From a bacterium ADurb.Bin236 (lineage in GTDB: Bacteria; UBP15; UBA6099), in contig MWCD01000028.1 of assembly GCA_002069885.1 (NCBI GenBank), forward strand, positions 1 through 49,390: a stretch of DNA of 49,390 bases. Reading direction: 5' to 3'. Under the pieces are notes generated by a model. It was not told the origin of the DNA and did no database searches. It saw nothing but the letters and a program-made list of their open reading frames with translations. The translations under genes and the position numbers were made by a program. Every line of letters begins with the position of its first letter. The stretch's first letter is position 1. Positions 14,097 to 49,390 of this stretch are shown piece after piece.

Positions 14097-15977
14097 TCAG
14101 GGCAGCAGTATCGAGAAGTTTTCAGGCGGGTCGGTTATCCTGATGAATCCGACGGGGTCATCGGGAGTTTCGAACCTTGATATGTCGATGGCGGGAACGG
14201 TTCTGTGCGGAGACATCCAGTGATACTTGAGGATGAGTTCGCCGTTTTCGGCGCGTGCGTTGCGCACATCAATGCGCCCGTATCCGGCAGAGACATCGCC
14301 GCCGCCGCGAATGAAGTATGAAGGCTCGAAACCGGAGACCTCGAATATGTCGAACCTGCCGGCGCGGTCGATAAGAGCATAGTAGCCGCTGAATTTCGAG
14401 AAGTATTCCTTTGCCGCGCCGGACCAGCATACGATCCATTTCACGTTGTAAAGCTTGAGCCGGTTCAGCAACTCGTCAGGCCGGGAATCGGCCAGACGGG
14501 AGCCGAACGCGCGGGCGTCGTAGAAACCGGCGCGCCTGTGTTTGAGAAACACGTAAGGGTAGGGGCCGCCGATGAATTCGCGTCCCGTCCAGACTCCGAA
14601 GAGCGCGGGGAGTTGCGATTTGCCGAATATCTGGCCTTCGCTTTCCTCGTCCATGGAGCCGGAGTCTTCGAGCATGACGCGGGCGCCGGGGGGCAGTTGT
14701 TTTAATACTTCGACGAGTTGGAGCGCGTCGGGCGGGGCGGGTTGGCGCAGGAGGTTGTCGTAGAAGAAATGGGCGCGGGCCGAGCCTATGACCATGAGAG
14801 CGGCGCAGACGATGGCGGCGAGCAGGGCGGCGGCGCGGCCTGCGGAACGCCGCGACCGGGACTCCGCCCATGAGGCGATGCCGACTCCGCCTGCCGCGGC
14901 CAGAGCGAACTGCGAGAGCGGGAAGTATCTGGACGGGTTGAGGGTCTGCCCGCCGGGGAGGAACGCGCCGTAGTAAGAGTAGAGCCAGAAGAAGGCGGCG
15001 AAGGCGGCGAGGAAGGCGGCGGAGCCGCGCGCGCCTCTGCGGCGCAGAGCGACAGCGCCCGCCGCGCCTGTTCCCAGCAGCAGCCAGAGCGTGGCGGCGT
15101 GCGCCGCTCCGAACGCGCCGCCGAACTCGTGGTTGTTCATCGAGACCGACGCCGTGAAGTAGTCTTTAAATGGCCGCCAGATGTCGAGGTTCATCCAGAA
15201 ACGAGCTTCGGGAACGCTCTCCATGTCGGGCATGAAGCGGAACATGACGGCCACCCACTGGATGTTGGCGAGAAGCATGACGGCGGGGATTGCGGCGACA
15301 AGGACCGCCCTGAGGAAGCGCCGCCGCAGGAGCGCCCATGCCGCCGCCGCGAGGAACGCGGGAGCTAGAGCGACGGCGGAGGTTTTGTGGACGAACAGCG
15401 CCAGAGCGCACGCGGCCGCCGCTCCAGCCCACGACGCCGCGCGGCCTTCTTTAGCGAATTTGAACACAAAGGACGCGGCGAGGAGTGACAGACAGGTTCC
15501 CGCGCCTGCGGTCGGCATCCCGCCGAGGAAAAACAGCATGGGCATTCCCGCCATGAAATAAGCTCCGCCGAGGGCCATGCCGAACGCGGCCTCGCTCCGG
15601 GTCAGCCCGAAATTCCTCAAAGAGACCCACCACAGCGGCGCGAACAGGAGAAGCCCGATGGAGATAAAGGCTTTCAGGACGGAATCGACGGAGGCGTCCG
15701 GGAAGAGAACGGCGAGGCGCTGAAGAGCGATGTTGCTGTTCCAGACGAAGCCCAGAGGGAAACCGGCCATGAAATGCGGGTCGTATCCCCATATCGCGCC
15801 GGACGCCGAGTGGAACTCGCGCGCGGCTTCGCACTGGTATTTCAGCGCGGCGAAATCGTTGAACAGCAGAGGGGCGTCCTTCATCCGGAAACTGCGCTCA
15901 GCGTTGCCGGTAAGCAAAACAACCGCCAAGCCCCCGGCGAGAACATATATCCACGCTTTCGACATTTTTTTAATCAT
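14097..15977 (-). CDS. GT-C-like integral membrane protein (probable polyprenyl-sugar glycosyltransferase)
   Basis: 626 aa with roughly 11-12 hydrophobic segments from residue 8 to about 410, then a soluble C-terminal part (residues 420-626) ending in a small beta domain with LKYHWMSPHRTVPAID. This layout, a first extracytoplasmic loop rich in acidic residues (FRMKDAPLLFNDFAALKY), and its place directly after a GT2 and a radical SAM gene fit a GT-C fold enzyme using a lipid-phosphate sugar, or a relative such as the PTPS-related membrane family. The start at 15977 has GAGGGA upstream and overlaps the radical SAM stop by 8 bases. The acceptor is unknown; I cannot confirm catalytic residues by eye. 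Confidence 0.65.
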   Translation of the reverse strand: MIKKMSKAWIYVLAGGLAVVLLTGNAERSFRMKDAPLLFNDFAALKYQCEAAREFHSASGAIWGYDPHFMAGFPLGFVWNSNIALQRLAVLFPDASVDSVLKAFISIGLLLFAPLWWVSLRNFGLTRSEAAFGMALGGAYFMAGMPMLFFLGGMPTAGAGTCLSLLAASFVFKFAKEGRAASWAGAAAACALALFVHKTSAVALAPAFLAAAAWALLRRRFLRAVLVAAIPAVMLLANIQWVAVMFRFMPDMESVPEARFWMNLDIWRPFKDYFTASVSMNNHEFGGAFGAAHAATLWLLLGTGAAGAVALRRRGARGSAAFLAAFAAFFWLYSYYGAFLPGGQTLNPSRYFPLSQFALAAAGGVGIASWAESRSRRSAGRAAALLAAIVCAALMVIGSARAHFFYDNLLRQPAPPDALQLVEVLKQLPPGARVMLEDSGSMDEESEGQIFGKSQLPALFGVWTGREFIGGPYPYVFLKHRRAGFYDARAFGSRLADSRPDELLNRLKLYNVKWIVCWSGAAKEYFSKFSGYYALIDRAGRFDIFEVSGFEPSYFIRGGGDVSAGYGRIDVRNARAENGELILKYHWMSPHRTVPAIDISRFETPDDPVGFIRITDPPENFSILLP

Positions 15978-17127
15978 CGCGGTCCCTCGCGGCGACGAAG
16001 TATCTCCGCCTGAATTCTTTGTCGGAAGCCGCCTTGCGGACGAACCATGGGACTACGGCTCCGGAGAAGAAAACTGAAGGGTTGATGTCGCACTCGATCC
16101 AGCAGCCGGGGCAGGAGAGGACTTTGCGGCGGACGGCGTCCGCGCGCGGGCCGCGCCACAGAGAGGAGAACGGCTCTGCGGCGGCGTTTCCGGCGGTTTC
16201 GCCGCGCAGTCCGCTGCAGGGGAACACATCGCCGCCGGGGGACATCCTGAAGTGGGCGAACATCGCCATGCACGGCGGGGCAGGCTCTGATTTGCCGCGC
16301 AGCAACCTGTTGGCTCCGCCCTCGTTGAGGTAGTCCTCGGAGACGTCGCGGAGGAAAGCTCCGGCGGAAAGGGCGCGGGCGCGCGCGGCGGCGGGAGAGC
16401 CTTTCGCGGCAGCGTGCGAGCGGTAGAAGCTCTCTATCTCCGCCCTCGTCATGTCCTCCTGCGTCTCGAACCCGCCGGGGGCGGCGTCCGTCTTGCCCTC
16501 GTGGTTCTTCGCGCCGAGGAAGACGCTGTGGCCGAGCCCGAGGCTTTCCGCCAGCCTGCCGACAGGCTCTATCTGGTCTAGGTTGCTTTTCAGCGCCGTC
16601 TGGTTTATCCCCGCGTGGAATCCGAGGCGTTTTTTCAACTCGGACAGCCGGCGGAGCGTTTCCATAGCGCGTTCCGACGCTCCGGGGACGCCGCGCGCCT
16701 CGTCATGGACGTCATTGAGCGCGTCGAGGCTGACCTGAATATGCAGCAGGCGGGCGAGACTGCCCGCGCTCTCGACCAGCTCCGCCGCCCTGTCCGGCAG
16801 AAGCCCGTTGGTGGTGACGTAGAAGAATCGCAGCGAAGGCGCTCGCTCCGTCGCCAGACGGAAGAACTCGGGGAGGTCGTCCCTTAGGAACGGCTCGCCG
16901 CCCGTGACTCGGACGACTTCAAGTTTCGAGAGGGCGGGGTCGCGGACGATTTCGCCGAGCCGAGCCGCGGGCAGTTCATCGCTCTGAGGCCAGCCGTGAA
17001 TGTCGCACATTTTGCAGCGGGCGTTGCAGCGGTTGGTGATGTTGAGGGTCATCAGGAACGGAGGAGATGGCCGCCCGAAGGCTCTGCGCGCGCGCGCCGC
17101 CGCTATGTCCGCCAGCGTTCTAATCAT
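15970..17127 (-). CDS. Radical SAM protein with SPASM-like C-terminus
   Basis: 385 aa. The [4Fe-4S]-SAM motif is CNARCKMC (C34, C38, C41), followed by RVTGGEPFLRDDL (GGE motif) and VTTNGLL. The C-terminus has a SPASM-like auxiliary-cluster arrangement: CMAMFAHFRMSPGGDVFPCSG and CPGCWIEC. SPASM proteins modify peptides, small molecules or lipids by radical chemistry. It overlaps the GT2 gene by 4 bases (ATGA) and the GT-C-like gene by 8 bases, so the three are probably translated together. No precursor-peptide gene is visible nearby, which argues against a simple RiPP maturase. Confidence 0.85.
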   Translation of the reverse strand: MIRTLADIAAARARRAFGRPSPPFLMTLNITNRCNARCKMCDIHGWPQSDELPAARLGEIVRDPALSKLEVVRVTGGEPFLRDDLPEFFRLATERAPSLRFFYVTTNGLLPDRAAELVESAGSLARLLHIQVSLDALNDVHDEARGVPGASERAMETLRRLSELKKRLGFHAGINQTALKSNLDQIEPVGRLAESLGLGHSVFLGAKNHEGKTDAAPGGFETQEDMTRAEIESFYRSHAAAKGSPAAARARALSAGAFLRDVSEDYLNEGGANRLLRGKSEPAPPCMAMFAHFRMSPGGDVFPCSGLRGETAGNAAAEPFSSLWRGPRADAVRRKVLSCPGCWIECDINPSVFFSGAVVPWFVRKAASDKEFRRRYFVAARDRDD

Positions 17128-17849
17128 CCCTTGCCGCTCCCGCGCCCGGCTGCCGATATCTCTTTCCTGAAACGTTTGAGGTCTTGATAGAGGATTTTCA
17201 GGTTTGCGGAGCTTATGGAGCTTGAGCGGCCCGAGCGCCGGGGCGCGCAGGACACCGTGGACTCTTCAACCCGCCGACCCGCGAGGCTCATCCGTATCAC
17301 AAGCTCGCCCTGCATGAAAATCCCGTCGGTCGACGGCGGGGCGACGCTTTGGAGCGCGTCTCTTTTCAGCGCCTTGATGCCGCAGCCGAGGTCTCGCGCG
17401 GGAGAGCGGAAGAGCGCTCGCGCCATCGCGTTGTACGCCCAAGACATTGCGGCCCGGGCCGGGCCGTTGGGGTATCTCGCGCGGCGTCCCTGAACGACGT
17501 CCGCCCCCGCCAGCAGCATGTCCAGCATAGCCGGCAAGTCGCCGGGGTCGTACTGTCCGTCGCCGTCCATCACCGCGATGAGCGGGTGAGCCGCGCGGGC
17601 CAGCCCGGTGGAGATCGCTCCGCCGTGCCCCTTGTTCTTTTCGTGATGCAGAGCGGTCACTTCGGGATGCCGCGCCGCCAGAGCGTCCGCCGCAGCCGCC
17701 GTGCCGTCCGGGCTGCCGTCCTCGACGATGATGATTTCGAGCGCGCCGCACATCGGGCCTAGAACGTCCAGACACCGCAGAACCAGCGGCCCGATGTTCG
17801 CCTCGTCATGGTACGCCGGACATATCACGCTCACCGCCTCGTATCTCAA
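17124..17849 (-). CDS. Glycosyltransferase family 2, dolichol-phosphate-mannose-synthase-like
   Basis: Transfers sugar from a nucleotide donor, in this subfamily typically to polyprenyl phosphate. Motifs: VICPAYHDEANI (N-terminal nucleotide fold), VEDGSPDGT, MDGDGQYDP (DxD-type metal site), then VVQGRRARYPNGPARAAMSWAYN and LGCGIKALKRDAL. No C-terminal membrane helices, so it would rely on a membrane partner. I choose the TTG at 17849: it has GGAGC seven bases upstream and begins just before the conserved fold; the ATG at 17963 would add about 38 Arg/Gly-rich residues. It overlaps the radical SAM start by 4 bases and heads the minus-strand operon 17.85-13.11 kb. Confidence 0.85.
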   Translation of the reverse strand: MRYEAVSVICPAYHDEANIGPLVLRCLDVLGPMCGALEIIIVEDGSPDGTAAAADALAARHPEVTALHHEKNKGHGGAISTGLARAAHPLIAVMDGDGQYDPGDLPAMLDMLLAGADVVQGRRARYPNGPARAAMSWAYNAMARALFRSPARDLGCGIKALKRDALQSVAPPSTDGIFMQGELVIRMSLAGRRVEESTVSCAPRRSGRSSSISSANLKILYQDLKRFRKEISAAGRGSGKG

Positions 17850-17973
17850 TACCCTGCTCCGTTTGATTATCTGTCTGCCATGAATAAATCTTAACACAAA
17901 CGGATAAGCGCGCCACCCGCGCGGAGAAATAGGGTCGCCGCCGCGTCCGCGCCGTCCCTCCATCCCGCCGCGT

Positions 17974-39280: not shown

Positions 39281-42238
39281 TTAGTTTTCGATGAAAGGCT
39301 GATAGGGGTCGGAGGGGGCGGGTTGGCCGGGGTTGGTCGCCCTGTCGATAAGGATGTTGAACTGTTCCCTATGGGTTGGGAATCTGCGGGCGGCGCCGCG
39401 CAGAGTGGAGATGGCTTGGTCGGGTTCATCGCAGTTGCCGTAGCTGATGGCAAGAGAGAGGTGAAGCTGCGGTTCGTCTGGCATTCTCTTAATCAGTTCG
39501 GACAACACGGTAACGGCTCTCTCGCAATCGAGAGATGAATAGAATTTCTGGAGCGGGAATTCGGGGTCGATGTCTCTGATTTCGCGGACGGCCCGGGCGA
39601 AGTTGTCGTGCTGGCCAACGTTGCGGAATAGTATGGCGAGGGCGTAGAGGAGTTCGAGGTTGCGGTCGAACTCGGCCATGATTTCCTCTACTTCGCGGGC
39701 GTAGAGGTGCTGAAGGCGGCAGTTGTAGTATTGTTCGGCGATCTCTATGCGGAGCCAGAGCATGTCGCGGCGTTTTTCTTTTGCGTGGTCGAGGACTTCG
39801 ACGGCTTTCGAGCAGGCCCCCATCTGGTTGTAAATGCGGGCGAGGTTGATGTAAGGGGAGGCGTAGTAGGGGTCGAGGTTGGAGGCTGCTTCGTAGTATT
39901 GAATGGCGGCGTCGCGTTGACCGAGGGCGACGAGAGCGCCTGCGATGTTATGAAGGGCGCGGGAGTTGTAGGGGTCGAGGGCGAAAGCTGTTGTCCAGAG
40001 GGCGACGGCCTCGGAGATCGACTTCTGGGTCTGCTGGCGGAAAAGAACGGTGGCGAGGGCCTCGTACAACTGGGGGTCGAGCGGGTCGAGCTTCAGGGCT
40101 TTGCGCATCAACTCAAGGCCTTTTTCCCTTTGCCCGAAGTAGAACTGGCAATGGCCTTTGTTTGAGAGGGCTTTCGAGTTGAGGGGGTCGTATTTGAGGG
40201 CGAGGTTGAATTCTTTTAGAGCGGTTCTGAAATATTTTTGGTCGCCTGTTTGAGCGCCGTAGTCGAGATAGATTTTTCCGCGTTCGTTGTGTATGGAGGA
40301 GATGTTGACGGCGCTTGAGTCGTCTAGGGAGATGTAGCGCGGGCCGCCGCCGAAAGCTTTCCATTGGGGGGTGGCGTCGGCTTCGAGCATGGAGTCGATC
40401 TCATCCGGGGAGATGTCGCCGGGAGCGATTCTGTATACCGCGCCTCTTGGGACTGTGCGGTAATCCATTTCGAGAGGTATGAAAAGGAAGTCGGAATAGA
40501 AGGCGCGGGACGGGTTTGCGCGCATAAGTTCGACGGCGTATCTGGCGCGGGCGGGGTCGTCCACTCTGAAGACGGGTTTTTCTTCCTCGAACAGAGAAGT
40601 GTCCGGGAATATCACGTCGGGGTAGTGTCGCCGCAGGCGGTCAAGCTCCCATTTGAAGGGGAGGAACGAGACGGGGACGACGGTTATTTCGCGGCGTTTG
40701 AAGATGTCGCCCTCGCAGGCTCTGAAGTAGCCCATTATGCCGGGCGTCTGGGTTCCGATGAAGACGACGCTGTTTGATCTGACGTCGTCGATGATAGCCT
40801 CGCCGAGGATGCGGGCGCCGCCGGCGCGGTTCATGTGGCGGCGGTCCGCGCCGGTGAGGTTGACGCCGACTATGAAGAGGATTAGGGCGGCGGCGGCGAG
40901 CCTGAACGGGGCTTTCCACAGAGCGCCCCGGAGGGGCCGCCAGCCGACCACCGCCGCAGCTCCGGCTCCCGCGAACAGGCTCATGACGATGAACAACTGG
41001 ACTCGGAGGGCGTCGGGTTTTCCGTGACTGATCAGCAAAGAGCCTGCGAGCGCGCCCGCGCCGCAAAGCAACGCGAAAAGCGTGGAGCGCCAGTCTTTGC
41101 GGAACAGGAGGACGAGGCCGGGCAGTCCGAGCGCCATCATCGCCGGCGACATCTGTCCGAGGAACATCTTTATGTTCACTCGCTTGAGCAGTTCCATTTT
41201 GTCGGCAGGGAGCGTGGATTCATATCCCTGAAGGAAAAGGAGGTTCAGGAAGTTGACGGGATTTCTCGGCCCCCACCAGTCCGAGACGGGGCCGCGCGCG
41301 GAAGCTAGAGGGAGATAGGCGAAAACGAGAGAGACGGCGGCGGCGGCGGCGAGGATGGCGAGAGCGCCGCTGATGAAGCGGACGAGACCTTTTCTTTTCA
41401 GTCCGATGAAAACGAGGTATCCGGCGTACGCGGCTCCGATCGCGGCGAGCGCCCAGACGGCGTATTGTGTCAGCGCCGGGACGGCGTCAAAGGCGCGAAA
41501 CAGGTTAATCATTGCCGCGCCGAAGAGGATGAGCAGAGGCCCTGCGAGCGCGCGCCATCTGTGTCCGGGCAGCAGAGCAAGATGGATGATTGCGGCGCCG
41601 AGAGCGAAAGCCATGAGCAAATGGTGAGTGAAGCCGAGGAAGATGAGAAGTAGAGCGCCGGAGACCAGAGGGCGGGAGCCGCGCGAGCGGTCGATGGCCA
41701 GAAGGAGAATGACCCCCGCAAACAGCGCGGCGTGCGCCGCGTAGACCTCTGCAATGAGACCGAAATGGACGAACGAGCGGCAGCCCGCCAGCGCGGCGAG
41801 CGTTACAAGCCCGGCGAAAACCGAGCGGGACATCCTGACGACGGCGATGTAGAGCATTGTGGCGGCAAGCGCGGTCAGCAGCGCGCTCATCACGTTCGCC
41901 CTGAACGGGAACTCGTCAAACGGGAGAAGCGCGAACAGGCGCGACAACTGGGTGAACAGGGGGTAGCCGGGGGAGTGGGCGACGCCGAGGTTGCAGGAGA
42001 CTGAGACAAGCTCCGCGCTGTCGCCCCAGTAGAGCGTCGGGGCGGCGCAGTAAAGCAGCCAAGCGAAGGCGGCGAAGAACACAGCGGCCGGGGCCGCCCC
42101 TTTTCCGGCGCGCGCGGCGACGGCGGCTCTAACTGAGTCCGCTTTGGCGGACAGTTCCGAGACCTTTAACTCAAGAGCGGAAGGCTCTTTCGCGGGGCGC
42201 GCGGTATGTTTTTTCTTCTTTGCTTTTTTTGCGCTCAA
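39281..42238 (-). CDS. DUF2723 membrane glycosyltransferase with C-terminal TPR repeats
   Basis: 985 aa starting at TTG (42238), whose start overlaps the stop of the radical SAM gene (TTGA). A Lys-rich N-terminus is followed by about 11-12 membrane segments with the DUF2723 signature: WGDSAELVSV (residues 71-80), VAHSPGYPLF (86-95), and EVYAAH. The GD pair after the first helix is the putative catalytic/metal site of GT-C folds. The soluble part carries several TPR motifs (KYDPLNSKALSNKGHCQFYF, LDPLDPQLYEALATVLF, DPYNSRALHNIAGALVALG, YASPYINLARIYNQMGA). Probably an envelope O-glycosyltransferase or relative, with TPRs for protein contact. Acceptor and sugar unknown. Confidence 0.85.
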   Translation of the reverse strand: MSAKKAKKKKHTARPAKEPSALELKVSELSAKADSVRAAVAARAGKGAAPAAVFFAAFAWLLYCAAPTLYWGDSAELVSVSCNLGVAHSPGYPLFTQLSRLFALLPFDEFPFRANVMSALLTALAATMLYIAVVRMSRSVFAGLVTLAALAGCRSFVHFGLIAEVYAAHAALFAGVILLLAIDRSRGSRPLVSGALLLIFLGFTHHLLMAFALGAAIIHLALLPGHRWRALAGPLLILFGAAMINLFRAFDAVPALTQYAVWALAAIGAAYAGYLVFIGLKRKGLVRFISGALAILAAAAAVSLVFAYLPLASARGPVSDWWGPRNPVNFLNLLFLQGYESTLPADKMELLKRVNIKMFLGQMSPAMMALGLPGLVLLFRKDWRSTLFALLCGAGALAGSLLISHGKPDALRVQLFIVMSLFAGAGAAAVVGWRPLRGALWKAPFRLAAAALILFIVGVNLTGADRRHMNRAGGARILGEAIIDDVRSNSVVFIGTQTPGIMGYFRACEGDIFKRREITVVPVSFLPFKWELDRLRRHYPDVIFPDTSLFEEEKPVFRVDDPARARYAVELMRANPSRAFYSDFLFIPLEMDYRTVPRGAVYRIAPGDISPDEIDSMLEADATPQWKAFGGGPRYISLDDSSAVNISSIHNERGKIYLDYGAQTGDQKYFRTALKEFNLALKYDPLNSKALSNKGHCQFYFGQREKGLELMRKALKLDPLDPQLYEALATVLFRQQTQKSISEAVALWTTAFALDPYNSRALHNIAGALVALGQRDAAIQYYEAASNLDPYYASPYINLARIYNQMGACSKAVEVLDHAKEKRRDMLWLRIEIAEQYYNCRLQHLYAREVEEIMAEFDRNLELLYALAILFRNVGQHDNFARAVREIRDIDPEFPLQKFYSSLDCERAVTVLSELIKRMPDEPQLHLSLAISYGNCDEPDQAISTLRGAARRFPTHREQFNILIDRATNPGQPAPSDPYQPFIEN

Positions 42239-43611
42239 AATTGCCGTCCCCTGAAAACCACCCTAAAGAACTTCCTTATAAGATACATCAGATGGGCCGG
42301 AGAGTGAATACGCCGAAACGCAAGAGTCAGCAGAGTGAGCGGTCTGTAGAAGAACCGGCGGTTGGCCAGCCTGAACATTTTTTCCAGCGTCGCGGCGTCG
42401 AATTTGCCGGGCATTTCGTAAGCGGCCCTTCCGAGGAAGAAGCCCTGTTCATACATGTTTCGGTCGTTGTGGAACAGGAAACGGCCTTCCTTTACGGCGA
42501 TGTCGTGCAGGTCCGTGCCGGGGAAGGGGATGACGATGAAGAACATGGCCTGATGGAGCGGCAGCGAGCGCGCGTGCTCTATGTTGCGGCGCATGGACTC
42601 CTCAGTGTCGAATGGGAGGCCGAGCATGAAGAAGCCGTTCATGAGTATGCCGGCGCGGCGCGCGGCGGAGATCGTGCCGCGCACTTTTGAGACATCCACT
42701 TTTTTGCCGAGCTTGGTCATGATTTCCTGATCGCCCGTCTCGACGGCGATGCAGAGGGCGTAGAATCCGGCGCGCCGCATCAGTTTAAAAAACTCATAGT
42801 CCCCGATGTCCGGCTTTATGCCGGAGGGTATCATGATGCTGACTTTTCTATCTCTGCGCTTGATGAGGTTTTCGCAAATTTCTTCCGCGCGGTCGCGTTT
42901 AAGAGTGAAGTTGTCGTCCCAGAAGTGGACTTCCCGCGCTCCGTGTTTGAGAGTAAGCTCGTCGAACTCGGCCATGACGGTGTCGATTTTTTTATATCTG
43001 ATGCGGTTCTGGAAGATGATGTCGGATGCGCAGAAGATGCAGTTGTAAGGGCAGCCCCGGCTGGTCATCATCGGGAGAACGGGGTTTCGTTTCGTGTGTT
43101 CGAGCCTGTATTTGTCGATGTCGCCCAGATGCCAAGCGGGGAACGGCAGGGCGCTGAGGTCTTCTATGAGGGGCCTTCGTCCGTTAGAGACAATGCCGGA
43201 GCCGTCGAAGAAAGCCAGCCCGGCGATTTCGCGCAGAGGTTTGCCGTCTTCGATTTCAGACACAGTTTCCTCGGCCTCGCCGATAGCGACTGCGTCCGCC
43301 CATTCAGGGATAAGCTCTTCGTATTTGACGGTCGGGTAAGGGCCGCCCATTATGATTTTCAGCGAAGGATATTTTTTACGGACGTATTCGATGACTTTAA
43401 TGGCGGGGCCGATTGAGAGAGTGTTGGCGGTGATGCCGAACCATTCGTGGTCGGGGACGGCGCGGTCGAGCGCTTCCTCCCATTTTTTTTCATAGTTGGC
43501 GTCGATGTATTCGATTTTGCGGCCCCTGCTTTCGAGGGTGGCAGCGATGGATAGCATGCCCATAGAGGGGAATCTGTAGCCTTCGTAACAGTCTGGGTTA
43601 AAAAATATCAT
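42235..43611 (-). CDS. B12-binding-type radical SAM protein (second of the locus)
   Basis: 458 aa. N-terminal cobalamin-binding-like Rossmann fold (PSMGMLSIAATLESRGRKIEYID, SLKIIMGGPYPTV; no DxHxxG), then radical SAM with CPYNCIFC (C187, C191, C194), WDDNFTLKRDRAEEIC and a C-terminal part that resembles lipid- or hopanoid-modifying members. Overlaps the DUF2723 genes on both sides (14 bases upstream, 4 bases downstream), so production is coupled. Substrate unknown; methylation or C-C bond formation on a lipid or glycan carrier is a reasonable guess from the family and context. Confidence 0.88.
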   Translation of the reverse strand: MIFFNPDCYEGYRFPSMGMLSIAATLESRGRKIEYIDANYEKKWEEALDRAVPDHEWFGITANTLSIGPAIKVIEYVRKKYPSLKIIMGGPYPTVKYEELIPEWADAVAIGEAEETVSEIEDGKPLREIAGLAFFDGSGIVSNGRRPLIEDLSALPFPAWHLGDIDKYRLEHTKRNPVLPMMTSRGCPYNCIFCASDIIFQNRIRYKKIDTVMAEFDELTLKHGAREVHFWDDNFTLKRDRAEEICENLIKRRDRKVSIMIPSGIKPDIGDYEFFKLMRRAGFYALCIAVETGDQEIMTKLGKKVDVSKVRGTISAARRAGILMNGFFMLGLPFDTEESMRRNIEHARSLPLHQAMFFIVIPFPGTDLHDIAVKEGRFLFHNDRNMYEQGFFLGRAAYEMPGKFDAATLEKMFRLANRRFFYRPLTLLTLAFRRIHSPAHLMYLIRKFFRVVFRGRQF

Positions 43612-45481
43612 AGGCTTTCAGTTTCCAATCGGCGCAAAGAGCGCGGAATTTTTCTGCCTCGGCGGAGGCTCCCAGTTTGGCGTGGGCGTCTGCCAGTCCG
43701 CAGTGAATTGTTTCGTTCTGAGAGTATTGTAAGGCAAGGGATAGAGAGGACACAACATCGGAGTGTCTGCCGGAATCGGCGAAATGGCGGGCGCGCTCTG
43801 TGAGCATGTCCGCCGTCAGAGCGTCGAACACCGAGGAGAGGGAGCCGGCTGAGGCGAGCGCGGGCGGGCTTTCGTCCCGGGGAGTTCCTTCGCGGGCGTT
43901 CAGCGCGAACAGGGAGCCGGACGGCAGGGGCGTCATCGTCGATTCGAGAATCGGGTTGTGGAACATGCGGGTGGTGTTGGCGAGAACGTCGCAGCGGCCC
44001 GCGTTGGCTTCCGCGATTTTCGCGGTCTGAATGTTGACGGAAGGCAAATTTATCGTGCGGCCCTCGCGTAGCCGAGCGAATTCCTCAGGGGTGAGAGGGT
44101 ACTGTTTGCCGCTTTCGACGGCGAGGTCGATTTCCGGGATGGCGGCGGGGTGGCCTTGTCCGCGAGCGCGTTCGCCCATGTACCCGGCGTACCACGGGAA
44201 CGCAAGATACAGGCGGTGGAACACGAAGGCGTCGCGGCGGACATTTGGTATGAACTGATAGTGGAGCGGGGGGGCGACCGTGTCGTTTGCGACGTGGTCT
44301 ATGAATATGATGGCGTCCCGGGGCGCGTCGCGGAGGATGGCTTCAGAGTAGGCGCGCGGGGAGTCGTCGAGGCGGACGGCGAAAAGTCGGTTGTTTCGAT
44401 ACAGCAGCCACGCCGGATGCGCTACGCACGCGGCGGCGATGACGACTGCTGCCAGCTTCCGCGCCGGGGCGGGATTCGCTTTGCCCGCGAGCGCTCCAAG
44501 TCCCGCCGCGCCTAGTAGCAGGAACGCAGCGCACGCCGGGAGGAAAAACTCCTCTTTCTCGTGCGTGGGATACATCACAGGGAAAAACGCGCCGAGAGCG
44601 AACACTCCCGCGAGCAGCCATCTTCTGAACCCGGCGGCAGGAGAGATGAAAAACGCCGCCGCCGCGCCCGCCGCCAATAAAATGGACGACTGTGAAAGCA
44701 GCGACCCGGCCAGAGATTTCGCTGCGGCAAGCATGATCGCCGCCTTGTATTCCCCGGCCACCCAGAAATCTCTGCCGCTCATCAGTACAGGAAGGTTCCC
44801 GGCGCGCTCGACTAAATTCCAGTCGAACAGGTCGGAGCGGGCGGACATCAGGGGAAGAGAGGCGTAAGCGGAAAGCCCGGCGCAGATGATGAAAGCGCCG
44901 CAGAAAAGGACTAGAGGCAGAGAGCGGCGGTTGGTCCACAGACCCGCTGCGCCGAGCAGAAGGGCGGGGAATGCGAGGGTTCCATGGTTGCCGAGGCCGA
45001 CGGCTCCCGCGAAGAATACGGCGGCCCACGCGCGCCCCGCGCCGCCTGACGGCAGCGCCAAGGCGAGCAGCGCGACGCAGAACAGCAGGTTCAAAGTGTA
45101 AACTTCGAGAGCTACGGCGGACGACCACAGGAAGGTGGACGCGCCGAGAACGAGTGCGGCGTAAACCCCCGCCGGAGCGCCGCCGAGCCGGGCAGCGACG
45201 CGGAAGAAGACCGCGAGCGCCGCCGCCGCCGACAAAACGCTGACAAGGCCGAACCTGAAACCAGCCTCTCCTGTGGGGACCGCCAGAGCAAGTTTGCCCA
45301 ACAGGGTGACGAGCGGGTATCCGGTGGGGTGCGCGACGCCGAGGTAGTGCGCGGACAGCACGAAGTCGGCGCTGTCGCCCCAAGCCATGTCCGGTCTTGC
45401 CGACCACAGGAAAAGGGCGGCTCCCGCAAGGTATATCGCCGCAGACAGCGCGCCCGCGCCGCGCGGCTTACTTAGCCACAT
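43598..45481 (-). CDS. DUF2723 membrane glycosyltransferase, shorter form
   Basis: 627 aa. DUF2723 signature: AWGDSADFVLSAHYLGVA (residues 33-50), HPTGYPLVTLL (51-61), VALEVYTLNLL. About 11 hydrophobic segments, then a soluble C-terminal part (about 360-627) with a region rich in beta strands and a weak TPR-like pair at the very end (RHSDVVSSLSLALQYSQNE, CGLADAHAKLGASAEAEKF). Overlaps the first radical SAM stop by 14 bases and the second radical SAM start by 14 bases. Same family as the TPR-bearing 985 aa neighbour, so the two may be paralogs with different partners. Confidence 0.82.
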   Translation of the reverse strand: MWLSKPRGAGALSAAIYLAGAALFLWSARPDMAWGDSADFVLSAHYLGVAHPTGYPLVTLLGKLALAVPTGEAGFRFGLVSVLSAAAALAVFFRVAARLGGAPAGVYAALVLGASTFLWSSAVALEVYTLNLLFCVALLALALPSGGAGRAWAAVFFAGAVGLGNHGTLAFPALLLGAAGLWTNRRSLPLVLFCGAFIICAGLSAYASLPLMSARSDLFDWNLVERAGNLPVLMSGRDFWVAGEYKAAIMLAAAKSLAGSLLSQSSILLAAGAAAAFFISPAAGFRRWLLAGVFALGAFFPVMYPTHEKEEFFLPACAAFLLLGAAGLGALAGKANPAPARKLAAVVIAAACVAHPAWLLYRNNRLFAVRLDDSPRAYSEAILRDAPRDAIIFIDHVANDTVAPPLHYQFIPNVRRDAFVFHRLYLAFPWYAGYMGERARGQGHPAAIPEIDLAVESGKQYPLTPEEFARLREGRTINLPSVNIQTAKIAEANAGRCDVLANTTRMFHNPILESTMTPLPSGSLFALNAREGTPRDESPPALASAGSLSSVFDALTADMLTERARHFADSGRHSDVVSSLSLALQYSQNETIHCGLADAHAKLGASAEAEKFRALCADWKLKAYDIF

Positions 45482-46883
45482 AGTCGGCCACCACCGTGCG
45501 CGCCTGTTTCAGCAGAGAATACGCTTCCCGCGCGCTCCTTATCGAAAACGCTTTTTTTATTATGTACCCCGGACGGAGATAAAATTTCGAGTAACCGCGC
45601 CTGAGCAGTTCCGCCAGTTCGGGGCGTTCGAGCCGCCGGGACAGGATGGGCATGTCGCGCGCGCCCGCCGCCATATCGTCCCACACCGAGCGGTCAATCT
45701 CGCCTGCGGCCAGCCGCCTTTCGTATTCGCGGGCGCCCGGAAACAGGGAGCCGATGTTGAACACGGCGAAATCGGGAGAAAGCTCAATGGCGCATTCGAT
45801 AGTTCTTTCTATGTCCTCGCGCGATTCGTCCGGGCCGCCGATCATGAGGAACGCGTTGATAGTCAGGCCCGCCGCGCGGCAGGCGGAGAAAGCCCTGTCG
45901 AGGGCGGCGTCTGAGACCGGTTTGTCGGCGGCCTGCCGCGCGCGTTCGTCTCCGAACTCCACGCCGAAAGAGACATTGACGCAGCCCGCGCGCCTGAACT
46001 CGATTGCTGCCTCCTCGTCGAGAAGGTCCGCGCGCGTCTGGCACGACCATTTCAGTCCGGCTCCGAGGCGCTTGATGCCGCGCGCGATTTCGATGGCGCG
46101 CTCTCGGTTGAATGTGAAAGTCTCGTCGATGACGGACACAAAGCCGTAGCCCTCGCGGGCGGCAAGTTCGATTTCGGCCATAGCGCGCTCGACGCTTGCC
46201 GGCCTGTGAGCGCCCATAGACAGGGTTCGGCAGCAGAAGGAACACTGAAATGGGCATCCGCGCGCCGACAGCAGAGTGGTGGTGCGCGTGTTAATGAACG
46301 GGTTGAAATAAGCGCCGGAATTGCGCAGCAGGGAGCGGGAAGGGAGGGGTATCGACTCCAGATCGGCCATAGCGGGAGTCGGGGCGGCGGTGTCTCCGGG
46401 GGCGACTACGCCCGATTCCGGGCCGGGGACGCGTCCGCCGCGAAGAAGCGCGTCCGCGAGCGCGGAGAAGGCTTCCTCGCCGTCGCCGACCACGCCGTAG
46501 TCCGCGCCGAGCGCGCGCAGTATGCCGGGGTCGCAGGAGACGTGCGGGCCGCCGGCCACGATGGGCGCGTCCAATCTCTTCCTAAGCGCGGAGATGAGCT
46601 TGCGCGCCTCGCCGAGCGCCGGGGTCGTAACGCTCACTCCCGCCAGCCTCGGCTTGCGGGAAGCTATCAGGTCGGCCAATTCCTCATCGCTTCCAGCGTC
46701 CACCTGCCCGTCGAATATCTCGACGCCGAAACCGCGCGCGGACAGCGACGCCGCTATCGAGCATAGCCCCAGAGGCGGGTAATAAAGATAGTAACCCGCC
46801 TGCTTTGCCCGCTTTCCGCCGGCGCTGTTCATCTCCGAAAAATCGTATCCCGGAACAGCCAAAGCCACGTCTGGAAATGCCAT
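45468..46883 (-). CDS. B12-binding-type radical SAM protein (first of the locus)
   Basis: 471 aa from ATG at 46883. N-terminal cobalamin-binding-like domain (YYPPLGLCSIAASLSARGFG, APIVAGGPHVS), radical SAM motif CPFQCSFC (C210, C214, C217), DETFTFNRERAIEIARGIKR and VEFGDERARQAADKPVSD. The upstream ATG (46934) would add an unsupported leader and lies upstream of the -10 element. Its transcript is predicted to start on the ATG itself. It is first in the operon that alternates radical SAM and DUF2723 genes. Substrate not assignable. Confidence 0.88.
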   Translation of the reverse strand: MAFPDVALAVPGYDFSEMNSAGGKRAKQAGYYLYYPPLGLCSIAASLSARGFGVEIFDGQVDAGSDEELADLIASRKPRLAGVSVTTPALGEARKLISALRKRLDAPIVAGGPHVSCDPGILRALGADYGVVGDGEEAFSALADALLRGGRVPGPESGVVAPGDTAAPTPAMADLESIPLPSRSLLRNSGAYFNPFINTRTTTLLSARGCPFQCSFCCRTLSMGAHRPASVERAMAEIELAAREGYGFVSVIDETFTFNRERAIEIARGIKRLGAGLKWSCQTRADLLDEEAAIEFRRAGCVNVSFGVEFGDERARQAADKPVSDAALDRAFSACRAAGLTINAFLMIGGPDESREDIERTIECAIELSPDFAVFNIGSLFPGAREYERRLAAGEIDRSVWDDMAAGARDMPILSRRLERPELAELLRRGYSKFYLRPGYIIKKAFSIRSAREAYSLLKQARTVVADYVAK

Positions 46884-46889
46884 GAATTC

Positions 46890-46918
46890 ATTATAGCAAC
46901 ATCTTGTATTAATGTATA
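46890..46918 (-). promoter_or_regulatory. Leaderless promoter for the radical SAM operon
   Basis: On the minus strand: TATACA (46918-46913), 17-base spacer, TATAAT (46895-46890), then six bases to the ATG at 46883. With standard spacing the start site is the A of ATG. No Shine-Dalgarno is present. Confidence 0.65.
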
Positions 46919-46982
46919 ACCCGGCGCGCCTCAATTTCGAAAAACTTTATGCAGAGCGCGTTTTTCGCCGCGCGGGGTTTAT

Positions 46983-47011
46983 TTGACACGCGCGCCGCGC
47001 GGCAATACAAT
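46983..47011 (+). promoter_or_regulatory. Leaderless promoter for moxR-DUF58
   Basis: TTGACA (46983-46988), 17-base spacer, TACAAT (47006-47011), then GAAAAA and the ATG at 47018. With standard spacing transcription starts on the A of ATG. No ribosome site precedes it. Confidence 0.75.
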
Positions 47012-47017
47012 GAAAAA

Positions 47018-47959
47018 ATGAATGAAACTTCGCAAAAAATCCAACTCCTCATAAGCAATATCGAGCGCGTTTTCGTCGGCGGACGGGACACCGTCGAGCT
47101 TTCACTCATCGCCCTGTTCTGCGGCGGACATCTTCTCATAGTCGATCTGCCCGGCGTCGGGAAAACCACGCTCGCCAAGGCGATTGCCCGCTCGATTCAG
47201 GGCAAAACGAAACGCGCGCAGTTCACTCCCGACCTGCTTCCGGCGGACATAACGGGAGTGAATATTTACATCCATCAGAAAGGCTGTTTTGAGTTCCACC
47301 CCGGGCCGGTGTTCTGCAACATACTGCTGGCCGACGAGATAAACCGGGCCACCCCGCGCGCGCAGTCGAGCCTGCTCGAAGCGATGGAGGAGTTTCAGGT
47401 CTCCGTCGACGGCGTCACTCATAAGCTCGAACAGCCGTTCATGGTTATAGCGACGCAGAACCCGGTGGAGATACAGGGCACGTTCCCGCTTCCGGAAGCG
47501 CAGTTGGACAGGTTCCTAATATCGGCGGCGATAGGGTATCCGTCGCGCGCGGATGAGGCGCGGATACTGAACGACAGGGCGGAGTCCGACCCGCTGGATT
47601 CGCTTGAGCCGGTGATGACTCTGGAAGATGTCGAGCGGGTGAAGAAAGCGGTGTCCGCCGTCCACCTGTCCGAGCCGGTGAAGAACTACGCGCTGGACAT
47701 CGCCGCGGCGACGCGCGATAGCGACGAGATATTGCTCGGGGCGAGTCCGAGGGCGACGCTCGCGCTGGCGAGGGCGGCAAGATGCGAGGCTCTTTTTAGG
47801 GGCCGCGATTTCGTGGCTCCCGAAGACGTCAAGGCGGTGGCCGCTTCAACGCTTGCGCACAGGATAGCGCTGCGGTCGGCTTCCCGGCTCAACCTTGAAC
47901 GCAACCGCGCCGCCGTCTCCGCTATCGTTGACAGGCTGCCCGCGCCTCGTCCGGGGTGA
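47018..47959 (+). CDS. MoxR family AAA+ ATPase
   Basis: 313 aa. AAA+ features: Walker A DLPGVGKTTLA (43-53), Walker B ILLADEINRA (102-111), sensor 1 in MVIATQNPVEIQGTFPLPEAQLD, and sensor 2/arginine-finger region (ILLGASPRATLALARAARC). MoxR proteins act as chaperone-like ATPases in metalloprotein or envelope complex assembly and are usually encoded next to DUF58 genes. The ATG at 47018 is placed at the predicted start site; the earlier frame (46949) lies upstream of the promoter. DUF58 begins 4 bases after the stop, as a pair. Confidence 0.93.
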   Translation: MNETSQKIQLLISNIERVFVGGRDTVELSLIALFCGGHLLIVDLPGVGKTTLAKAIARSIQGKTKRAQFTPDLLPADITGVNIYIHQKGCFEFHPGPVFCNILLADEINRATPRAQSSLLEAMEEFQVSVDGVTHKLEQPFMVIATQNPVEIQGTFPLPEAQLDRFLISAAIGYPSRADEARILNDRAESDPLDSLEPVMTLEDVERVKKAVSAVHLSEPVKNYALDIAAATRDSDEILLGASPRATLALARAARCEALFRGRDFVAPEDVKAVAASTLAHRIALRSASRLNLERNRAAVSAIVDRLPAPRPG

Positions 47960-47963
47960 GAAC

Positions 47964-48676
47964 GTGATCGAACGTCTCGCCGCATTCGGCAGGCTCATCT
48001 TTCTCGCTCTCTGGGCGGGACTGCTTTTTCTCATAGCCACAAACATTCAGTCGGGCTGGCTGTACGTCGTCATCTCCTTCATGCTTATTCTTGCGGCGGT
48101 GTCGGTGGCTGCCCCGAAATCGGCGCTGCGCGCGGTGTCCCTCGAAGCTGCTCTTCCCGAACTCTGCGAGCGCGGTTCTCCCGCTACCGCCGTCCTCACA
48201 ATCAGAAACAACTCCCGAATCTCCCGGCACATGCTGAGGATAGAGTCTCTGTCATGTCCGGGAATAAGATTCGAGCCCGACCGGGTGTTCATCGTGTCGC
48301 TGCCCGCCCGCTCGTCCCTGACTGTTTCAGCTAGATTTTTGCCGGAGAGCAGGGGGCGGCTGAAGATGGAGAGGGCGGCGGTCAGTTGCGGCGCTCCTCT
48401 TGGGATTTTTACCGCGCGGCGCGAGTTTCCGCTTCGGGCAGTCTCGCTTGCGCACCCCCGAGTGGACCGCGCGGAAGGGGAGTCTCTCGCCGAATACGGC
48501 GGCCGCGCCGACCCGCGCGCCAACCCCGCGAGATTCGAGCTTCGCGACTCTTATAACTACAGACTTCGGGAATACGTCCCCGGCGACTCGCTCCGCCAGA
48601 TACACTGGAAGCTGACGGCGCGCGCGGGGGAGCCGATTGTCAAACAGAACGACGGCGCGGCGGTGTGCATCATCGT
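47964..48676 (+). CDS. DUF58 family protein, interrupted at a join
   Basis: Starts at GTG 47964 (GGGGTGAG upstream), just after moxR. Two N-terminal membrane segments (AAFGRLIFLALWAGLLFLIA and SGWLYVVISFMLILAAVSVA), then a beta domain, then the DUF58 core YNYRLREYVPGDSLRQIHWK followed by PIVKQNDGAAVCIIVV. DUF58 proteins continue for some 150 or more residues after this, but from about 48680 the reading frame has no DUF58 character and the DNA matches another gene on the opposite strand. The C-terminus is therefore missing here. Function: partner of the MoxR ATPase, probably envelope-associated. Confidence 0.8.
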
Positions 48677-48682
48677 CGTGTC
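48655..48682. other. Probable chimeric junction
   Basis: Up to about 48677 the plus strand reads as a DUF58 gene; from about 48660 the minus strand reads as an ABC substrate-binding protein (GATGWADTTMMH). The ~20 bases in between fit both, the pattern expected of a join at short shared sequence. The simplest reading is an assembly or amplification chimera. Confidence 0.75.
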
Positions 48683-49390
48683 GGCCCACCCGGTCGCCCC
48701 CTCTTCCGGCACCGTGCTCGCGATCGGCTGGTTCTCCGACTTGAGGATGTTGACCTGGAACGGCCAGGACGAGGAGGCGACGAAGCCCTCGTTCTTGAAG
48801 TCGTCCATCTGGACGAAGGCGTCGTGCCAGTAGCGGCTGACGATCTGGCGCTGGGCGCGCAGGAGCTCGAGGGCCGCCTTGTACTGATCTTCGGTCAGCT
48901 CGTAGGGGTCCTTGATGCCGAGTTCGGGCTTGTGCTTCATCAGATAGAGCGCGGCGTCGGCGATGTAGATCGGACCGTCGAAAGCCTGCACGCGGCCCTT
49001 GTTCGGCTTGCCGTCGGGAAGGTTCATCGCCTCGAAGACGATCTTCCAGCTTGTCGGCGCCTCCTTGAACACCTCGGTGTTGTACATGAGGACGTTCGAG
49101 CCCCACTGATAGGGCACGCCGTAATGGACGCCGTCGACGGTATGCCAGGGGGCATCCTGCAGGCGGGGATCGACCTTGCCCCAGCTCGGGATCAGGCTCG
49201 TGTTGATCGGCTGCACGCGCTTGCCCGAGATCAGGCGGAGCGACGCGTCGCCCGACGCGGTGACGAGGTCGAAGCCGCCTTCGTTCATCAGGGCGACCAT
49301 CTCGTCCGACGTTCCTGCGGTCTTGATATTGACCTTGCAGCCGGTCTTGGCCTCGAAATCGGTGACCCAGTCATAGGCCTTGTCGGTCTC
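48660..49390 (-). CDS. Polyamine-type ABC transporter substrate-binding protein, partial
   Basis: Open from the window end through to the join, about 240 residues of the middle of the protein. It reads ETDKAYDWVTDFEAKTGCKV, TSDEMVALMNEGGFDLVTAS, SWGKVDPRLQDAPWHTVDGV, YGVPYQWGSNVLMYN, FKNEGFVASSSWPFQVNILK and ends in STVPEEGATGWADTTMMH: the PotD/YdcS family that binds spermidine/putrescine-like ligands in the periplasm. Both ends are missing (the start lies past the window, the C-terminus is replaced at the join). Codon choice is uniformly GC-ending in a way unlike the other genes, typical of an alphaproteobacterium. Probably not part of the main genome. Confidence 0.85.

Follow-up and report, generated by a model that had tools for sequence, protein, structure and literature searches.

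TMEM260 is a human, disease-linked O-mannosyltransferase whose bacterial relatives are widespread. TMTC1-4 (GT105) are also O-mannosyltransferases, in which a GT-C module is followed by TPRs, and ArnT and other GT-C enzymes glycosylate lipids. TMEM260 itself is a member of family GT117; it uses a lipid-linked (polyprenyl-phosphate) mannose donor, its acceptors are folded protein domains, and its C-terminal TPRs have been proposed to recruit them (PMC11292533). The corresponding Pfam family PF11028 (CAZy GT117), formerly DUF2723, is now named “Protein O-mannosyl-transferase TMEM260-like.” We found no paper on DUF2723 in the open-access literature, none there joining a B12-binding radical SAM protein with a mannosyltransferase, and no paper assigning a bacterial function to the relatives of TMEM260.

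AprD4 is a radical SAM diol-dehydratase whose substrate is an aminoglycoside sugar, MoeK5 acts on a sugar of the phosphoglycolipid moenomycin, and HpnJ, HpnR, and the ladderane protein remodel membrane lipids. Cobalamin radical SAM methylases that use sugars as substrates take part in making gentamicin and moenomycin; GenK, GenD1, and MoeK5 are examples (PMC8992657). They sit in secondary-metabolite clusters without a TMEM260 partner, unlike the operon described here, which comes from an uncultured member of the candidate phylum UBP15 and combines two B12-binding radical SAM proteins with two TMEM260-like enzymes. The superfamilies of all four proteins are known, and their lineage-restricted combination appears to be undescribed. 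We tentatively read the operon, with somewhat less than an even chance of being right, as a co-transcribed and translationally coupled system of glycan modification, in which a sugar would be radically modified and then transferred by the GT-C enzymes to an exported protein. Its conservation points to an undescribed route by which a sugar, its carrier, or its target is altered before attachment at the cell surface, and the link between two TMEM260-like enzymes and radical enzymes offers a handle on both the sugar attached and the acceptor.

Gene order and start of the operon

The window, i.e., the whole stretch of 49,390 nucleotides that was analysed, belongs to a 3.87 Mb genome that is 92.6% complete. 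The four genes follow each other on the minus strand in the order rSAM1, GT_A, rSAM2, and GT_B, the radical SAM proteins alternating with the GT-C enzymes (Table 1). The sequence-only reading had described this order with overlaps of 14, 14, and 4 bases, and both were borne out on the DNA (rSAM1/GT_A, GT_A/rSAM2, and rSAM2/GT_B, respectively).

Table 1. Features of the operon in the window, in the direction of transcription.
Feature	Coordinates	Strand	Basis
Promoter, extended -10 TGcTATAAT	46883..46910	-	TATAAT ends 6 bases 5' of the rSAM1 ATG
rSAM1, B12-binding + Radical SAM, 471 aa	45468..46883	-	Pfam; CxxxCxxC
GT_A, TMEM260-like GT-C, 627 aa	43598..45481	-	PF11028; 9rql similarity
rSAM2, B12-binding + Radical SAM, 458 aa	42235..43611	-	Pfam; CxxxCxxC
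GT_B, TMEM260-like GT-C + C-terminal TPR, 985 aa, TTG start	39281..42238	-	Pfam

The rSAM1 open reading frame spans 45468-46934, and the 471-residue protein starts at the ATG at 46883. The promoter, which the same reading had called leaderless, was located by a consensus scan whose result is weak when taken alone (4 found vs. 2.2 expected). The TATAAT-N6-ATG arrangement is nevertheless kept before rSAM1 in two other genera (L062 in G004 and L063 in G005) although the DNA farther upstream has diverged, and the predicted leaderless start of rSAM1 is thus supported.

The MoxR gene divergent to rSAM1 has a TACAAT -10 box 6 bases 5' of its ATG (47006-47020, to be compared with the TATAAT of rSAM1 at 46883-46910). 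TATAAT at exactly the 6-base spacing shows a small excess in the loci of relatives (4 cases in 9, including orthologous ones), so that leaderless starts may be common in this lineage. Relative to the window, G003 carries about 1.8 kb extra between rSAM1 and the divergent MoxR (L058, 11691-13509). Toward the end of the window, the sister genomes match at 96-97% up to position 48664 and have no match beyond (48665-49390); the DUF58 gene (47895-48833) stops mid-domain and runs into a fragment of a solute-binding protein on the opposite strand (48557-49390). Positions 48665-49390 are probably a chimeric contig end.

Radical SAM proteins and TMEM260-like transferases

The Pfam B12-binding and Radical_SAM families matched rSAM1 at 78.8 and 76.6 bits and rSAM2 at 52 and 69.6 bits, and the CxxxCxxC motif was invariant (C210/C214/C217 in rSAM1, C187/C191/C194 in rSAM2). 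On these domains and this motif, both classify as cobalamin-type radical SAM proteins, with the B12-binding plus radical SAM architecture by which we liken them to GenK, GenD1, and MoeK5. Their chemistry is not fixed by homology, since neither reaches any NCBIfam equivalog or subfamily cut-off, including those of HpnR and PhpK, and all scores lie far below. Of the solved structures, AprD4 (6fd2) has the sequence most similar to rSAM1 (134 bits) and also to rSAM2 (96.5 bits), yet the two proteins score only 134.2 and 99.9 of the 500 bits of its NCBIfam cut-off, so that neither classifies as an AprD4 diol-dehydratase; a further difference from AprD4 is the clear Pfam B12-binding domain of both proteins. 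Among NCBIfam families, rSAM2 and its kin come closest to HpnJ, BchE, and the ladderane-lipid family, which also rank among the best for rSAM1, although the scores are at most about one third of the equivalog cut-offs. The hopanoid enzyme HpnJ was rejected on its score (181.6 of 577.6 bits) and because a search of the 92.6%-complete genome gave no squalene-hopene cyclase. The AlphaFold models had mean pLDDT values of 49.8 for rSAM1 and 33.8 for GT_A, too low for the models to be of use.

GT_A and GT_B matched PF11028 at 51.5 and 62.2 bits, against a gathering score of 24.2, and by this measure classify as members of the TMEM260-like/GT117 family. With GT_A as the query, TMEM260 (PDB 9rql) was the only convincing solved structure retrieved, whether by the single sequence (E = 1.2e-21) or by a profile (E = 3.2e-30); the similarity covers residues 13-445, or 14-437 with the profile, and the profile of GT_B resembles TMEM260 over its first 160 positions. 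Both proteins have the N-terminal GT-C module of TMEM260 (9rql/9rqm/9rqn) and share with it the first-loop motif GDS.(E/D)......GVAH..GYPL, including the conserved acidic residue. Hydrophobic or transmembrane segments number about 9 in GT_A, which ends in a hydrophilic part, and about 11 in GT_B. Pfam TPRs were found in the C-terminus of GT_B and none was detected in GT_A. GT_B is thus built like TMTC1-4, with a GT-C module followed by TPRs, but its GT-C domain matches PF11028/TMEM260. TMEM260 is a eukaryotic ER enzyme without a link to a radical SAM gene, whereas the UBP15 proteins are bacterial and two divergent members are encoded in each operon. TMEM260-like genes were present in 173 of the 386 sampled genomes. 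Three of them stand in tandem at L074 (7180-14287, G030) and L207 (7307-14633, G177), an arrangement kept in two genera of another family.

Conservation and origin of the gene set

When the four-gene order was sought in other genomes, it proved to be kept as a unit, between unrelated flanks, in one family, where two genera carry it, and also in a second, and the block was present in every sufficiently contiguous genome examined from these two families of the order. G001 and G003, from the genus of the window, have the whole block with 97-99% protein identity. G002, whose contig starts within rSAM2, has rSAM2-GT_B. In the other genus (G004), rSAM1-GT_A ends one contig and GT_A-rSAM2-GT_B starts another; in the other family (G005, L063) rSAM2 is in tandem, giving the order rSAM1, GT_A, rSAM2a, rSAM2b, GT_B. 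Identity to the window across genera was 56% for rSAM1, 62-69% for rSAM2, 44-53% for GT_A, and 44-49% for GT_B. The GT_A/rSAM2 overlap measures 14 bases in all three genera; rSAM1 and GT_A overlap by 11 bases in G004 and are separated by a gap of ~60 bases in G005, and GT_B of G004 has the TTG start and 4-base overlap of the window. Each genus has its own flanking genes: MoxR/DUF58 and STAS border the block of the window, that of G005 is flanked by further radical SAMs and a histidine kinase, and still others are found in G004. The dN/dS ratios between G000 and G003 were 0.11 for rSAM1, 0.07 for GT_A, 0.05 for rSAM2, and 0.04 for GT_B, and the block is under purifying selection. Chance adjacency or an artefact is ruled out because gene order and overlaps recur in other genera and dN/dS is 0.04-0.11. 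Three divergent radical SAM genes, two of them with a B12-binding domain, adjoin the operon of G005 (L063, 845-14600), whose block and neighbourhood hold six radical SAM genes in all.

Conservation as a unit has its limits. In G006, from a third family, the gene after rSAM2 (57% identical) is alpha/beta-hydrolase-like, and a GT_B-like N-terminus lies at the end of another contig, behind a PilC-like gene (both neighbours named by eye); no orthologue of rSAM1 was found in this assembly, which is 78% complete. Outside the order, 51 TMEM260-like genes had six or more flanking genes, and in 2 of these 51 loci a B12 radical SAM gene lay within six genes of the TMEM260-like one. This rate is about that of chance, given that genomes of the lineage have some 20 B12 radical SAM genes each. 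A general linkage of the two families across phyla is thereby ruled out, and the four-gene unit is accordingly lineage-specific rather than a general system. One of the two positive loci (L149) is an operon of a polyprenyl-phosphate-sugar-synthase-like GT2, a polysaccharide deacetylase, the B12 radical SAM, a small gene that is methyltransferase-like by eye, and TMEM260.

A tree of 86 B12 radical SAMs placed the orthologues of rSAM1 and those of rSAM2 in separate, fully supported clades, the sisters of rSAM1 being proteins of G092 and G232. The TMEM260 tree likewise separates GT_A from GT_B, with full support for each clade, although long branches make the deep placement uncertain. A recent duplication of an rSAM-GT module is ruled out, each gene standing in its own clade, and, as judged from these trees, the operon is a set assembled from four lineages. 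The “doubled module” of the sequence-only reading was thus misleading. Its treatment of the four genes as one unit fared better, being upheld by conservation in two families, but not by the genes lying apart in G006 or by the rarity of the pairing outside the order.

These patterns bear on the possibility that the radical SAM pair and the GT-C pair belong to different pathways and share nothing but a transcript in this lineage, which we consider unlikely. Adjacency is cheap in a genome with some 20 B12-binding radical SAM-sized genes, and the dispersal in G006, the lack of enrichment in other phyla, and the fact that neither pair consists of duplicates all fit such a convenience. The strict alternation of the genes, the persistence of start-stop overlaps between genera (in the case of GT_A/rSAM2, also between families) despite a complete change of flanks, and the retention of the tandem rSAM2 duplicate within the block of G005 argue against it.

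Candidate roles of the operon

In the mechanism that we propose for sugar modification followed by transfer, rSAM1 and rSAM2 would perform C-H chemistry on a sugar in the cytoplasm, most likely C-methylation or, alternatively, a deoxygenation of the AprD4 kind. The sugar would probably be modified on, or en route to, a polyprenyl-phosphate carrier, the donor being made by a DPMS/ArnC/GtrB-like GT2 encoded elsewhere in the genome, and the loaded carrier would then flip across the membrane. GT_A and GT_B, through the predicted catalytic Asp/Glu of the first outer loop (GDSA[D/E]..GVAH..GYPL), would take the sugar off polyprenyl-phosphate and attach it to an exported protein, which the TPRs of GT_B may dock as proposed for TMEM260 and the TMTCs. 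The presence of two distinct radical SAMs and two distinct GT-Cs suggests two modifications or two classes of acceptors. The analysis establishes the families, the operon, and its conservation; we infer the reaction type, the substrate, the order of the steps and the link between them, and the acceptor.

The sequence-only reading had already suggested such a modification and transfer. Its second half is in line with a GT-C family that uses polyprenyl-phosphate mannose and with the proposed recruitment by TPRs (PMC11292533), whereas methylation by the radical SAMs, a lipid-linked sugar as their substrate, and a single pathway for all four proteins are putative. A dedicated radical-modified O-glycan system, in which the B12 radical SAMs would put C-methyl or deoxy groups on a lipid-linked sugar for TMEM260-type enzymes to attach to exported proteins, seems somewhat unlikely to us as a whole. 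If true, it would bring to surface protein glycans a type of cobalamin radical chemistry that has been seen mainly in the making of antibiotics, hopanoids, and cofactors.

The radical SAMs could instead modify the acceptor protein in the cytoplasm (e.g., by side-chain C-methylation), with the GT-Cs glycosylating the same protein after export and the TPRs recognising its modified form. B12 radical SAMs acting on proteins or peptides are known, such as Mmp10 (PMC8992657), RiPP C-methyltransferases score against both rSAM1 and rSAM2 in NCBIfam, and folded domains are the acceptors of TMEM260 (PMC11292533). We nevertheless hold this possibility to be improbable, as no candidate substrate gene or RiPP-type recognition element lies in or beside the block, and the best matches, of the BchE/HpnJ/AprD4 types, act on small molecules or lipids and are not peptide maturases. 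It would be no more probable that the radical SAMs remodel a membrane lipid and that the GT-Cs glycosylate this lipid rather than a protein. The proximity of rSAM2 and its kin to the HpnJ, BchE, and ladderane-lipid families and the existence of lipid-glycosylating GT-Cs such as ArnT would agree with a glycolipid product, but a hopanoid substrate is unlikely since no cyclase was found, the GT-Cs match a protein O-mannosyltransferase, and TPRs such as those of GT_B are more usual for protein acceptors.

For the favoured sugar modification and transfer, candidate donor synthases (DPMS/ArnC/GtrB-like GT2) are present in the genome, none of them within the operon, which contains neither a polyprenyl-phosphate sugar synthase nor a flippase. 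In three further places of the same genome, radical SAM genes adjoin glycosyltransferase genes. One is a second overlapping operon of the radical SAM/glycan type in the window (14097-17963, minus strand), which encodes a DPMS/ArnC-like GT2, a radical SAM/SPASM protein, and a multi-pass protein of 626 aa that matches nothing in Pfam or the PDB; the others are C18 and C9. Outside the order, the nearest relatives of rSAM1 (G092/G232) lie in a glycan-type cluster next to another B12 radical SAM, and in G232 a YfhO membrane protein also adjoins the relative. Despite the many B12-binding radical SAM-sized genes (about 20), CobS was not found in the 92.6%-complete genome, and the host is possibly a corrinoid auxotroph with a heavy demand for B12. 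At C18, a third TMEM260-TPR protein is accompanied by a GT2 and, in convergent orientation, by a B12 radical SAM, and in G001-G003 TMEM260 and a B12 radical SAM are, as at C18, ~4-10 kb apart. C9 carries three B12 radical SAMs together with a GT2-type gene (named by eye) with three membrane segments.
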